This document shows positions 28,378 to 37,039 of a stretch of DNA of 64,000 nt, piece by piece (position 1 is the stretch's first letter; each line of letters opens with the position of its first letter). The DNA lies in NCBI GenBank assembly GCA_023078555.1, contig CM041200.1, positions 4,988,936-5,052,935 on the forward strand, written 5' to 3'. The stretch is from Ulva prolifera. Lineage: Eukaryota > Chlorophyta > Ulvophyceae > Ulvales > Ulvaceae. The translations under genes and the position numbers were made by a program. The notes under the pieces are model-generated. The model was not told the DNA's origin. It saw only the letters and a program-made list of their open reading frames with translations, and made no database searches.

Positions 28378-29135
28378 CTACTTGAGGGGGATGAAGCGGG
28401 ATGAAGTTGTGGCACCAATACCAGCACGTCCATGCCGAACAGGCTTGTATGTGATAGAGAACTCACCCAAATAGTGGCCGACCATCTCAGGCTGCATGGG
28501 CACGAATGATTGTGAGTTGCGTTCACTGGGCCCTTGTGCCTGAAATACGAGTACAGACGCTTGCCAACCCAGTAGTATGAAATTTACCTTGATTTCGACC
28601 TGGTTGAAGGTCTTGCCGTTGTATACGCCAACTAGTGAACCAATCATCTCTGGGAGAATCACAGCATCACGGAGGTGTGTGCGAACCGGATCGGGCTTCT
28701 CACCAGGTGTGGCGTTCTTCTTCTGCACGAAATACATGCTGATTAACAATATTGAATAGTATCTGTGCCACAATTGACGCACAGGGGGGCGGTGCGCCAT
28801 GCGACCAGACAAGGACGTACAGCTTTCCGCAGGCGGTTCACGAGACCAACATGCTTTCTGCGGTTGTTTTTCCGAAGAAGCCTACATAAACAATGTGTCG
28901 TTATACTACAGCAGCTAAGCAGCCTTGATCGCATGTACAGCGACGATCAATCGCATTTAGGAACGTAGGCACGGCCGCAGGACAGAGATACGTACTTGCG
29001 ACGGGCGCGAGCATGGAACAGATCCAGCAAAGCATCGAGCTGAAGCTCAAGCAGCTGCTCGAGGTCGACGCCGCGGTAAGAAAACTTCTTGAAAGAGCGC
29101 TTCTTCCTCTCTTCAGTGGGAGCGTCACCCTGCAT
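28378..29135 (-). CDS. RPS15: 40S ribosomal protein uS19 (RPS15)
   Basis: uS19 sits in the head of the cytosolic small ribosomal subunit near the A site. Four exons on the minus strand, all in phase: 29135-28996, 28881-28821, 28722-28588 and 28491-28378. They give 149 residues against about 145 in animals. [18 protein letters not shown] opens the protein. The middle has [15 protein letters not shown], then [47 protein letters not shown] and the invariant end SSRFIPLK. The start at 29135 ([12 protein letters not shown]) gives the expected N-terminal length, but the sequence just before it also resembles a splice acceptor (TATGCAG|G), so a tiny upstream first exon is possible. Confidence 0.97.
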
Positions 29136-29265
29136 ACACACATGGCCGCGCTTCTAGGGTCGTTTCGATCTAGACAATTGATTTAGCGGACAACCAAATG
29201 CGACTTCTGGTCAATAAGGGATTCAATCATTAGTGACACAGCCGTACCATGATTGCCAGCTGATG

Positions 29266-29781
29266 ATGAGCTACAGAACAGCAACTCAACACGAAAGAGG
29301 CAGACTTGGTGAATCACCTGAGTTCATCCTCGGCGCCCCTGCGCCTGTTCCACAATTCTCATCCGAGGGCTGGTCGTTGTTCCGGCTTTGTGACTACAGG
29401 TGCTGCAGCATGACGTCAGGTGGGCCTTCGATGGGTTTTTGGTCAAGCTGAGCACTGGACATGGACGTATCTCGCGTGCACCGGACCTGCAGGCCGCTGC
29501 GCCGGCCACGCACCACATACATGACATGCCATACTACATCAGTTCCAGACACAGCTGTGTTCCGTTCGTTGCTGTTCCATCACGCTGCCTGCCAGTTACT
29601 ACGAGCCAGGCCTGGCTCACTTTCATGAGTACATTTTCGTATGATGTGTAGTGCCGACGAAGACTCTTTAAAAGGTTATATACAAAAGCTTGGGGAGCTA
29701 GCTTCTCTGCTCGCAGACTGCCCTGATCTCCGACCCTGGGGCCCCAACAAGCGCAAGTACCGCACAATTGCCTGGGACGAT
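29266..29781 (+). CDS. Unrecognised plus-strand frame(s), possibly a small gene (doubtful)
   Basis: An ATG at 29266 opens a frame (MSYRTATQHERGRLGESPEF) that could end at a CTACAG|GTGCTG donor near 29399. A second open stretch at about 29649-29778 (DEDSLKGYIQKLGELASLLA, then GPNKRKYRTIAWDD) has even, protein-like composition and ends at a GAT|GTACGA donor. It is divergent from RPS15. No family is recognised and continuation to the right is unclear. Confidence 0.25.
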
Positions 29782-30591
29782 GTACGATTCTTGTACCTTT
29801 GCGTCTCAACATTGCATGCTAGACCTCTTATGCTCTGTCTAACGAGGCGGAATATGGCATATACGCACTACGAAAAATCTCGTGCTCCTCGATTTGCGGC
29901 GCTGAAACCCGGCCAGTCGAGTGCATGGCGTTGAGTTTTCCACACCGGCATCAACAATGGTTGATTGTGAGTTCATTGCCTGTTGTACTTGCCTCAACGA
30001 GCAGCCTCTTCCAGCAGGTCGCATGAGACGCCCTTCCGTTGACTGCGATTGCACCTGGTCACACTCCGCAAGCGTAATCTCGCTCAGAATGTGTCGGTAC
30101 TGTCACTTCCAGTCTGGCATGAAGCTGCCCGTGGTCCTGTTTCGAAGGCTTTGCTTTGGGCGTTTCGCGATGTGTTCGACTTCCCTAGGATGCTGCTGTG
30201 GTCAAGCAGGCATGAGGCCTGAGGGCCGCCTTCGTCGAGCGGTGTCAGGTTGTGGGCAGAATCACAGCTCTAGCGTCTGCTCTACAATATGGCACTGTCG
30301 AAGGACATCCAACTTGCTGCTGTGGTCCTGCCGGCCTTAGCTTCTGTACAAGCCCCTGTCACGGCTGCGCGTATGGCCGACACGGCTGGCTTGGCGGAAT
30401 CCCAAACCCAGTTCAGATCACCTATCCACCGCGTTTTCTGAAGCTGGCATCCTTATCTACTAGATGTATGAATTGATTGACACATCGGTCGGGGCCAACG
30501 CTATTCTGGCTGTGTGTACGTATACGGACCGAGTCATTTGAATCCCCATTGACCGTCGCAAGCCGCGGTGCCACGCGCGCTAGGTGAGGTA
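29782..30591. other. No confident gene; upstream region of the AdoMetDC gene
   Basis: Short open frames only. The right part should be the promoter and leader of the gene that starts at 30716. Confidence 0.4.
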
Positions 30592-30607
30592 ATGGTTGTT
30601 CCTCCAC

Positions 30608-30700
30608 ATGACACTGTGGCCTGGCGTTGCAGTGCAAGCGGCTTCCAAGCTGACAGCCCTCCTGGAGCTTCCGATCGTGGTTTTTCCCTTCTTCTCTTGA
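30608..30700 (+). promoter_or_regulatory. Upstream ORF of 30 codons in the AdoMetDC leader
   Basis: An ATG at 30608 opens a frame of 30 codons (MTLWPGVAVQAASKLTALLE at its start) whose stop lies 15 bases before the main start at 30716. Another upstream ATG at 30592 opens a frame that overlaps the main start and ends near 30777. Plant AdoMetDC mRNAs carry regulatory overlapping uORFs, but this peptide does not resemble the conserved plant one. Whether the leader is spliced is unknown, so the uORF may not be present in the mRNA. Confidence 0.4.
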
Positions 30701-30715
30701 TCTTGTCGCAGCGCA

Positions 30716-33660
30716 ATGGCCTCAGCCTCGGCCCCTACTGCGGACGTTCTGCCAAACCCCATCTTCGAGGGCTCTGAGAAGCGTCTGGAGCTGCACTTCA
30801 CAGATGCTGACGCCAGCATTCCCTCGCCCTCCGGCCTGCGGGCCATCAGTCGCAACACCCTCGACACTCTCATGGAGCTGGCAGCCTGTGAGATCGTGTC
30901 CTGTACCTCCAATGCCCACCTTGACTCGTACGTCCTGTCGGAGTCGTCTCTCTTCGTGTACCCTCGGACATGGATCCTGAAGACCTGCGGCACCACCAAG
31001 CTGCTCAACTGCCTGGACGTGCGCCCCACACCACCAGATCATCGTATCTGACGGCAGCTTGCCGCCTGTACAACTGTCCCACTCTGGCCCAATGCCCCAT
31101 GAGGTGCAAAGGACAGTTTGTATGTTTTGTACAGTTTGTACTGCTGCATGGTAACGTGCCCTTGGTCCCCTTGGGATTGGACGTGCACCCAGGGAGCGGC
31201 ATGGGCTTGGCCAGCGGAGGCATGATCTAGTGACTGTTGCATGACTTTTGCCTGCGTGTGCAGAAGCTGCTGGAGGTCGCGCGCCAGGTGGGTATGGTGC
31301 CGTGCTACTGCAAGTACTCCCGCGCCTCGTTCCTCTACCCAGACCTGCAGCCGGAGGAGTACAAGTCGTTCGACGGCGAGCTCGAGCACCTTCGCATGCA
31401 CCTCGGCCACCTCGGCCACGGCGGCTCAGCCTTCGTCCTCGGCGACAAGCTGCACGGCCTGCAGTGGCACGTCTACGTCGTCTCGGACGAGGCCGCGCCC
31501 GGCGCCTCCTCCAAAATGTCGCAGCTCTCCTCCGAGGACGTTTCGATCACCGTGCCTGCCACGCCGCTGCACACGATGGAGGTCTGCATGACGGACCTTC
31601 AGCCGGAGGCCGCACAGCAGTTTGTGCGCACGGAGGCGTTTGTGAGCAGCAAGCACACGACGACCTCCACGGGCATCCGGGCGCTGATGCCGCAGGCTGA
31701 CATTGATGACTACGTGTTCGAGCCATGCGGGTGCGCCTGCACAGCCCCCACACTGCAGCTCTTTGACCGAGATTCATTGTGGAACAGAGTGTTTATGCTT
31801 GGAAATCCGCCTGAGATGCGTTGGGATCTCACGAGGGACGTGAGGCATGATGTGACTGCTCGGCTGCAGATACTCCATGAACGGCATCGATGGCGCCAAG
31901 CACATGACCATTCATGTGACACCAGAGGAGGGCTTCTCATACGCGTCGTGTGAGATGCACGGCTTCACGGAAGAGAGCTTTGACCCCTCCGAGATGGCCA
32001 CGGCGATCACCAGCGTCTTCCACCCGGGCCGCCTTGTCGTCGCCTGTGCCACCAAGGCCGGTGCGCCAGACGGCAGCTACCTGTGGGCGTCCTGCGTGTC
32101 GGTGGCCGGTTACAGCTGCGCTGGCGCCACATGCCAGGAGCTGCCGACCGGCGGCCGCGTGTGGTTCTACTCGCTCGTGCGGGACTGCTTCCAGCGGTGC
32201 CCCCGCACGCTGTCGTGCCCTGCGCGCCTCGCGCAATGGCCGTCCTTTGCCACAAGCAGCGTGCGTGCGAGCCCGTCCGAGGACCGCATGGACACGCTGA
32301 CGCCACGCAGCAAGCGGACCGGGGGCGCCGCGTTTGGCGACTCCGGGTCGTCAGCCTCTGAAATGGACATTTTGGACCTGGACCGGAGCCCGACCGCCTC
32401 TGACAGCTGCGCGACCCGCCGGTGCGGCCCCCTTGCAGATGCATGCTCCGTCGGCAGGGGGTGTTTGTACCTTGGGCGTACACCTCGGCCACAGCTGCGT
32501 GTCACCATACCATCTCACCACATGCGCAGCAGAGTACCTTGCATCACAGAGCAGTCGGCAAGATGTTCCTCATGCACACTGGGCGTGGCCCACCATGACT
32601 GCAAGTGTCCTGATCATGACTGTGGCGGTGGTGCTGCAGGGCCATCGTGACCGCTCTGCCGACAGGCGACCAGGAGAGCGTGCTCGCTTTCGCGCGGCGC
32701 CTGACGCCCGCCCTGTCCAAGGAATCGGCCACCCTCATTGTGAACCTCGCCGCCGTGTCAGCGTCTGCGCGCCGGTGGAGCGCCGTGCTGCCGAACGTAG
32801 CGCTGCTCCATACCGTCGCCCACTGCACCGACCCCGAAGTCCTCGGCCGCCTGCAGTCCCTGGGCGCCGCGTTCGTCGCCAGCACCCCCGCCGACGTCTC
32901 AGCCCTGCGCGCCGCAGGCCTGAGCCTCGGCGGCACGGTCGTGCAGGCAGCCGGGTGGAAGCCGCGGGACATCCGGGCCGCGGCGGCGGCCGGGGCGCGC
33001 ATGTTTGCGGTGTCCAGCACGGCGGAGCTCGCGAAGCTGCAGCGCTTTGCCCCGTCCGCACAGCTGCTGCTGGTGGTTGCAGGCCAGGGCGCCGGCGCGC
33101 AGTGCATGGCGATCGCGGCCGGCGCGGAGCGCGTCGGGCTGCCGGTGCGCGGCGTGCTGGTGTCCGGGGACATGCGCAGCGACGCGTTGGAGTCGATGGC
33201 GCTCGTGCGGCGCGTGTGCTGTGAGCTCGAGGAGGAGGGGCACACCCTCGAGCACGTGATGTTTGCCGATTCGGCCGGGCAGTGCTGCCCGGACGCGCTC
33301 GCGGCGGCGCTCGAGCACGAAGGCGGCTGGACGGCGCGGCTGACGCTGTGCGCGGGCAGCTCAGCGCTCGTGGCTGGCGCGCTGACGATGCTCACGGCCG
33401 TGTACGCTGCGGACGAGGAGGGTGTGCATGTCACCGACCTGCCGATGCCTGCCGACAGCACCGGCAAGCCCGACGCTGTGCTGCTTGAGGGCTGCGGAGC
33501 GGACAGCGGCCTTGTGGACGTCATGGATGGCATGTACCATGGCCAGTTTCTGCTGCCGCCGGTGGAGGCTGGCGCCTGGCTGGCGTTTAATGGCGGCAGT
33601 GGCCTGCAGGGGCCCTGTGACGGCCCGATTTACTATGTAGATGTAGAGCATGAAGGGTAG
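30716..33660 (+). CDS. AdoMet decarboxylase fused to a catalytically dead ornithine-decarboxylase-like domain
   Basis: The N-terminal enzyme makes decarboxylated AdoMet for spermidine and spermine synthesis. Four exons in phase give 780 residues: 30716-31018, 31264-31730, 31870-32421 and 32640-33660. Residues 1-440 are a complete eukaryotic AdoMetDC. They have FEGSEKRLEL with the two Glu, the self-cleavage site YVLSE|SSLFVYP (pyruvoyl Ser about 77), KTCGTTKLL with the catalytic Cys about 91, and HVTPEEGFSYASCE with the His. Residues 442-780 have the ornithine decarboxylase/antizyme-inhibitor fold order: LPNVALLHTVAHCTDPEVL, GWKPRDIRAAAAAGARM, then VEAGAWLAF near the end. The PLP lysine position is Ala (about 501), the glycine-rich PLP-phosphate loop reads SAGQCC and the GPTCD motif reads EGCGAD. 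Exon 4 has no ATG near its start, so it is not a separate gene. Confidence 0.9.
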
Positions 33661-36233: not shown

Positions 36234-37039
36234 ATGGTGATAAGCTCACTACGAGCTCTACGCACAGCAAGTCGTTTGCCGAGAAAGGCAGCTGTGGAGC
36301 TCACTGACAGTGCTGCTGTGCGCATCAAAGAACTCCTCTCTCTTAGGCACAAGGTACCAGCTTCCCTGCCTTGCCACGAAATCACTCACATCGCAGCTTG
36401 TCGTCCTTGGCAGCTTTCGCGGGGTGAAAGTGTCTCAACTAGTTTTCATGCTTGCTTGTTCCTGCCACATGAATATGGCTGTGGAGAAGTCACTCATGAC
36501 AACACCATACTTGACAGGTCATGAGTGTGTACCCATGTACTGCTCGAAATTAGAGCAAAAAGGTCCGAATTCAGGCTTCTGCAAGTGCAGGAATACATCA
36601 AACTTGGGGTGAAGCAGCGAGGCTGCAATGGCTTGGCATATACAATGAATTACGCAAATGAGAAGGGCAAATTTGATGAAGAGGTTTCTGAGAAAGGCGT
36701 CCGTCTCCTCATAGAACCGTCAGCGTTGATGCACATAATTGGGACCAAGATGGACTTCGTTTCAGACAGGCTGAAGTATGTCATCCTGAACGGCGAACGC
36801 CCGCCAACACATGATGATGCACCTCAAAAGTTGTCCATTGATTTTTAACGCGCTTTGCAAGCAATCACACAGTTTCGCTGTGAGCTGCAGGGACTGCACT
36901 CAGTATACTGCAAGCATCAACTTCATTGTGGCTAGACTCAGTGTTGACTGGGTGGCGTATGTGTTGCAGGAGGGAGTTTATCTTCATCAACCCGAACTCG
37001 AAAGGTTCCTGTGGCTGCGGAGAATCGTTTACGACATGA
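36234..37039 (+). CDS. ISCA1: ISCA1, A-type iron-sulfur cluster assembly protein
   Basis: A-type carriers deliver [4Fe-4S] clusters to mitochondrial apoproteins. Three exons in phase: 36234-36353, 36591-36775 and 36970-37039. They give 124 residues. The N-terminus (MVISSLRALRTASRLPRKAA) is Arg-rich without acids, as in a mitochondrial presequence. The A-type fold follows: LTDSAAVRIKELL, EYIKLGVKQRGCNGLAYTM, FVSDRL, and GSCGCGESFTT at the end. The three cluster-binding cysteines are Cys52, Cys116 and Cys118. CNGLAYTM points to ISCA1 and not ISCA2. The last exon holds only 23 codons and carries two of the three ligands. A TGTAA lies 48 bases after the stop. ATM1/ABCB7, another gene of the same pathway, is 20 kb away. 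Confidence 0.95.

Follow-up and report, generated by a model that had tools for sequence, protein, structure and literature searches.

Why should an S-adenosylmethionine decarboxylase (AdoMetDC) of a green seaweed carry, on the same chain, a domain that has the fold of ornithine decarboxylase (ODC) and has lost nearly all of the ODC catalytic residues? The question is raised by a gene of Ulva prolifera lying in a window (the whole stretch of DNA that was analyzed) of 64,000 nucleotides from contig CM041200.1, positions 4,988,936 to 5,052,935 (Table 1). The reading that we favor is that the C-terminal half is the decayed ODC of an inherited AdoMetDC-ODC fusion and that it has kept a noncatalytic role, the kind of which we leave open; jointly, we give these two parts a probability of about 0.6.

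An earlier note, made from the letters of the window alone, had proposed that a splice from 32421 to 32640 keeps the frame and adds about 339 residues, and joining the predicted exons indeed gave one open frame of 780 residues, with the same style of donor and acceptor at all three introns. That the gene model has falsely merged two adjacent genes is very improbable. Read upstream, the frame of exon 4 meets a stop within intron 3, at 32617-32619, and it contains no ATG before residue 562, so this exon would not be ATG-started on its own unless spliced to something; a second protein, P0001 (jgi/Ulvmu1 UM120_0027.1, read as Ulva mutabilis), is annotated with the identical two-domain architecture and shows the identical join; and the 100 fusion records described below share the domain order. 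At the level of gene model and protein records, we regard the in-frame fusion of AdoMetDC and an ODC-fold domain on one chain as confirmed. Several short ATG open reading frames (ORFs) lie upstream of the gene, and a scan of positions 29000-30716 for fragments of the plant-type conserved upstream ORF motif gave a single match, GFSL at 30679, which was rejected as not plant-like in look. About 2.9 kb downstream of the gene, an ORF at 36525-36848 (+) encodes an iron-sulphur cluster biosynthesis domain (PF01521, E 3e-7).

Table 1. Features of the fusion gene, in window positions
Feature	Position	Strand	Description
Whole gene	30716..33660	+	Four predicted exons encoding 780 residues, no internal stop
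Exon 1	30716..31018	+	Start codon; N-terminal part of AdoMetDC with YVLSE/SSLF and KTCGTT; PF01536 match
Intron 1	31019..31263	+	GTGCGC...TGTGCAG
Exon 2	31264..31730	+	Middle of AdoMetDC; PF01536 match
Intron 2	31731..31869	+	GTGCGC...GGCTGCAG
Exon 3	31870..32421	+	End of AdoMetDC (PCGYSMNG, HVTPEEGF) and linker, residues 358-441
Intron 3, separating the halves	32422..32639	+	GTGCGG...TGCTGCAG
Exon 4	32640..33660	+	Residues 442-780 (dead ODC-fold domain), then stop codon
Ala501, in the column of PLP lysine K69	32818..32820	+	Alignment; Ala in both Ulva rows
SAGQCC where the IGGGF glycine loop (PLP phosphate) is expected	33271..33288	+	Alignment
AGSS where EPGR (E274, R277) is expected	33352..33363	+	Alignment

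A profile search with the 780-residue protein identified residues 16-357 as a class-2 AdoMetDC (PF01536, E 3.9e-94). The match covers the full domain, and the sequence carries YVLSE/SSLF, which we take to be the processing site, as well as KTCGTT and HVTPEEGF, presumably active-site motifs; P0001 matches TIGR00535 above the family cut-off. One AdoMetDC gene was found in the genome (88.9 Mb in 44 contigs), a count that is not certain because this PF01536 search, like all of our family searches, scored the best candidates alone and was positive in 0 of 14 prokaryote control genomes. Within the linker, residues 393-406 in exon 3 form a 14-residue run, SEDRMDTLTPRSKR, that is identical in both Ulva-type proteins; it sits in a stretch of low model confidence and is possibly a phosphorylation or docking site.

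The C-terminal half had been assigned to the ODC fold in the earlier note, and a profile search agreed: residues 478-604 match PF02784, the pyridoxal 5′-phosphate (PLP)–binding domain of ODC (E 1.5e-10, above the cut-off), and residues 442-780 are also of this fold by structure prediction. In the predicted model the ODC barrel is confident, helped by ODC rows in the input, and much of the C-terminal sheet is of low confidence. The isolated C-terminal domain (P0121) had no match in NCBIfam. For the catalytic residues, both Ulva rows were aligned with 99 other fusion records and nine columns were checked (K69, H197, G235-G237, E274, R277, C360, and D361, presumably in animal or trypanosome ODC numbering). 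The column of the PLP lysine K69 holds Ala in both Ulva rows, as the note had claimed, vs. Lys in 98 of the 99 other records and a gap in one. D88 is replaced by Val, H197, D332, and Y389 fall in gaps, C360 is Val or Leu, and E274 and R277 are absent, the last two in both of two alignments that differ by one residue in their placement of the EPGR region. The proposed replacement of the glycine loop by SAGQCC was likewise borne out; each Ulva row has Gly at one of the first two positions of the loop and Gln or Glu at the third, with G237 lost in both, and a 13-residue loop is missing from the domain as well. Asp is still present at D361 and Ser at S200, and only two of the nine checked columns still match in each Ulva row. 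P0001 shares these losses and its ODC half is equally dead, in keeping with the note's view of a catalytically dead half; judged by these residues, PLP binding and ODC chemistry by the domain are very unlikely. Both Ulva-type proteins have two vicinal Cys pairs in exon 4: residues 634-635 lie in the helix that follows the strand of the former H197, and residues 656-657 in what was the PLP-phosphate loop.

A full-length search with P0001 gave 159 matches, and among the best 120 of these, 97 (P0001 included) carry both PF01536 and PF02784 and 23 do not. The 97, together with three from a further search, made up an aligned set of 100 fusions, 99 of them non-Ulva. All nine checked ODC residues are kept in 93 of the 99, a count in which related strains are not independent, whereas in both Ulva proteins the lysine and most of the others are gone. 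Among the matches listed, fusion records with organism names are from green or streptophyte algae: Micractinium, Trebouxia, Myrmecia, Nannochloris, Prototheca, Coccomyxa, Auxenochlorella, Bryopsis, Elliptochloris, Klebsormidium, Closterium, Apatococcus, and Cymbomonas, with P0079 bearing the taxid of Nephroselmis pyriformis and P0065 the label Mesen1, read as Mesotaenium. AdoMetDC without an ODC half is found, also among the matches listed, in Raphidocelis, Scenedesmus, and Chlamydomonas sp. UWO 241 (Chlorophyceae) and in Chara. To judge from these records, it is common for green algae to carry a fusion whose ODC half is intact. The note had suggested looking for the Ulva arrangement in trebouxiophytes; the fusion is present there, but its ODC half is intact rather than dead.

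The records that are not intact among the 100 are P0001, P0007, P0021, P0023, P0027, P0055, and P0077. P0021 departs from the intact set by one residue (G236S), and we take P0007, P0023, P0027, P0055, and P0077 to be incomplete gene models (truncated, altered, or gapped), not additional dead ODC halves. P0114 from Closterium, a cut fusion just under the PF02784 cut-off, likewise reads as an incomplete model and was excluded from the 100, and P0036, P0047, P0059, and P0061 (590-671 residues, no ODC Pfam domain) were rejected as dead fusions, their tails being low-complexity. When the C-terminal domain was used as the query, P0001, 61% identical there, was the sole relative among 7996 scored candidates, a limit beyond which further relatives may exist.

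The idea of a dead domain freshly joined to AdoMetDC was not borne out. Given how common intact fusions are among green algae, we read the Ulva protein as an inherited bifunctional enzyme in which one half has decayed, and from the identical place and order of the two halves we consider descent from a fused, live ODC very probable. The dead domains scored 73.4/69.8 bits with a profile of fused ODCs vs. 53.8/56.5 bits with one of standalone ODCs, a weak comparison because the standalone set includes rows with a later start. A tree of AdoMetDC was built from the first 430 residues of 35 chosen rows, comprising 24 live fusions, nine proteins without ODC, and the two from Ulva. The Ulva pair belongs there to a group of eight (94/93, not starred), whose other members are five rows with no ODC half (Raphidocelis, Scenedesmus, Chlamydomonas UWO 241, and two others) and P0085, a live fusion with a long branch. 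An ODC tree of 51 chosen rows united eight Ulva-type standalone ODC rows, four of them from the U. prolifera genome, in one starred group inside a starred set of 17 standalone rows, together with eight chlorophycean rows and one from a pelagophyte. The branch leading to the dead domains in the ODC tree is 6.0 changes per column long, so the tree cannot show an origin from fused ODC, and their placement in it was not trusted. The simplest reading would be that a live fused ODC was inherited, that standalone ODCs took over, and that the fused half was eroded in Ulva and lost in the sampled Chlorophyceae. Intact fusions, the dead Ulva fusion, and the ODC-less AdoMetDC of three Chlorophyceae offer a testable series for the loss of one activity.

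Separate ODC genes, which the note had recommended seeking, are present in the genome as six standalone ODC-type loci, besides another PF02784 locus at C1:8519-8520 kb (13 of 14 controls positive). The motifs K, H, GGG, and EPGR occur in all six loci and GPTCD in five, the C1:6122 locus having GPTLD in its place; YDHG is shown solely by the C6 locus, so that one locus is canonical by the motifs checked. Three of the loci (C8:1606-1608 kb, C8:2349-2362 kb, and C1:6121-6123 kb) and the standalone Ulvmu1 proteins P0124, P0126, P0130, and P0203 keep the PLP motifs where covered, with no YDHA substrate motif (D332) seen. GPTLD also occurs in P0124 and P0130, and only the C6:8320-8322 kb gene shows the D332 motif and GPTCD together. 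By these motifs, the Ulva standalone paralogues without YDHA may act on another substrate or be partly dead. Family searches of the genome also found a spermidine-synthase-type match (eight of 14 controls positive) and gave no match to the agmatine iminohydrolase family (five of 14 controls positive).

How strongly the dead half is constrained can be gauged from the two Ulva proteins, which are 76.0% identical in AdoMetDC (260/342), 67.9% in the linker (57/84), and 60.5% in the C-terminal domain (205/339), so the dead domain diverges faster than AdoMetDC. Over its length the two differ by a single 2-residue length difference (2 gap columns), with no stop and no frameshift, and they share identical runs, among them RRVCCELEEEGH and AELAKLQRFAP. 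GC at third codon positions (GC3) is 0.862 in the dead domain and 0.852 in the AdoMetDC exons, compared with 0.48-0.64 for GC in the introns. In a neutral simulation scoring stops only, without indels (240 substitutions, ∼61% identity reached), 8 of 300 runs stayed stop-free at an equilibrium GC of 0.58 and 28 of 300 at 0.70, which makes the open frame alone modest evidence. Identity, GC3, and open frame point to constraint on the dead half without amounting to proof.

In the account that we favor, a bifunctional AdoMetDC-ODC ancestor of the kind widespread in green algae would have given rise to the Ulva gene, and its C-terminal half would have lost PLP binding, substrate binding, and catalysis in the Ulva line, with putrescine presumably supplied by the standalone ODC genes. 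With its frame open and the ODC barrel retained, the dead half would act without chemistry, either holding the fold or oligomer state of AdoMetDC or exerting control in cis over its activity or stability. Such a structural or regulatory role on AdoMetDC seems likely; taken by itself, the proposition that the half has retained a function stands at about even odds. Plant AdoMetDC is reported to have lost the ability to dimerize (PMC5201418), and a domain derived from ODC could thus provide a contact for oligomerization. The AdoMetDC and ODC domains of Plasmodium are reported to be mutually independent (PMC5004602), which makes cross-talk between the halves less likely, and our analysis found no partner or allosteric site for the dead domain. 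The narrower proposal, that the domain is an in-cis regulatory subunit of AdoMetDC built from the enzyme's former second active site, and so resembles a built-in prozyme or antizyme inhibitor, is tentative and on balance doubtful; were it so, features conserved in Ulva at and around the former PLP site, such as the two CC pairs and RRVCCELEEEGH, would create a new site for binding or redox chemistry, by which spermidine synthesis would be controlled by polyamine state or by a partner ODC. If the dead half does control AdoMetDC, this would be a new kind of seaweed polyamine control.

The half could instead be a vestigial tail, decaying since standalone ODC took over, tolerated and idle, and liable to vanish later. 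Such an outcome would fit the absence of an ODC half from AdoMetDC of Raphidocelis, Scenedesmus, and Chlamydomonas sp. UWO 241, the position of ODC-less rows nearest Ulva in the AdoMetDC tree, and the long branch and above-AdoMetDC divergence of the domain; however, a frame open in two species, coding-type GC3, the identical runs, and a barrel predicted confidently (with help from ODC rows) argue against idleness, and we hold it to be rather unlikely. ODCs act as dimers, and with six standalone ODC-type loci in the genome and Asp in the D361 column of both Ulva rows, the domain might form mixed dimers with standalone ODC-type proteins, altering putrescine synthesis or localizing it beside AdoMetDC. 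Several of the loops and residues that such pairing needs are missing, though (C360, Y389, H197, and the 13-residue loop), and the C-terminal sheet is largely of low confidence, which leaves pairing improbable. Scarcely credible is a decoy in the manner of antizyme inhibitor, in which the domain would bind antizyme and free ODC: no PF02100 match was found in the genome at E ≤ 1, a search in which the controls were silent too (0 of 14), and an antizyme-inhibitor function is unsupported by these data. A decayed fused ODC with a retained noncatalytic role remains our preferred reading.

A literature search of partial coverage turned up no description of AdoMetDC-ODC fusions from green algae or of the dead form seen in Ulva; a 2010 review on plant and algal polyamine synthesis may mention the fusion. 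The nearest comparison is with green-algal fusions such as those of Bryopsis (P0038), Myrmecia (P0016), and Klebsormidium (P0081), which share with Ulva the AdoMetDC-then-ODC order and a homologous AdoMetDC. The bifunctional enzyme of Plasmodium has AdoMetDC at the N terminus and ODC at the C terminus, and the Ulva protein has this order, but its two halves are not both complete. A 2016 paper describes Plasmodium, with both on one chain as in Ulva, as the sole organism with such a fusion (PMC5004602); the fusion type is known from this parasite, and the present searches, contrary to that claim, show that it is common in green algae. Both Plasmodium domains are active, whereas the Ulva ODC domain lacks the catalytic residues. 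Antizyme inhibitor (AZIN1) lacks ODC activity and is a separate animal protein that binds antizyme; it has the ODC fold in common with the Ulva domain, which is instead fused to AdoMetDC and is no separate paralogue. In trypanosomes, a dead relative of a polyamine enzyme, prozyme, regulates the pathway (PMC5201418). Prozyme is a dead AdoMetDC paralogue that forms its own chain, whereas the dead part in Ulva is ODC-fold and lies on the AdoMetDC chain itself. Victivallis vadensis SpeD with a degraded SpeDC domain is likewise a decarboxylase fusion with a dead C-terminal half (PMC10407285); there both halves are pyruvoyl SpeD homologues, whereas the dead half in Ulva is an unrelated, PLP-fold ODC.
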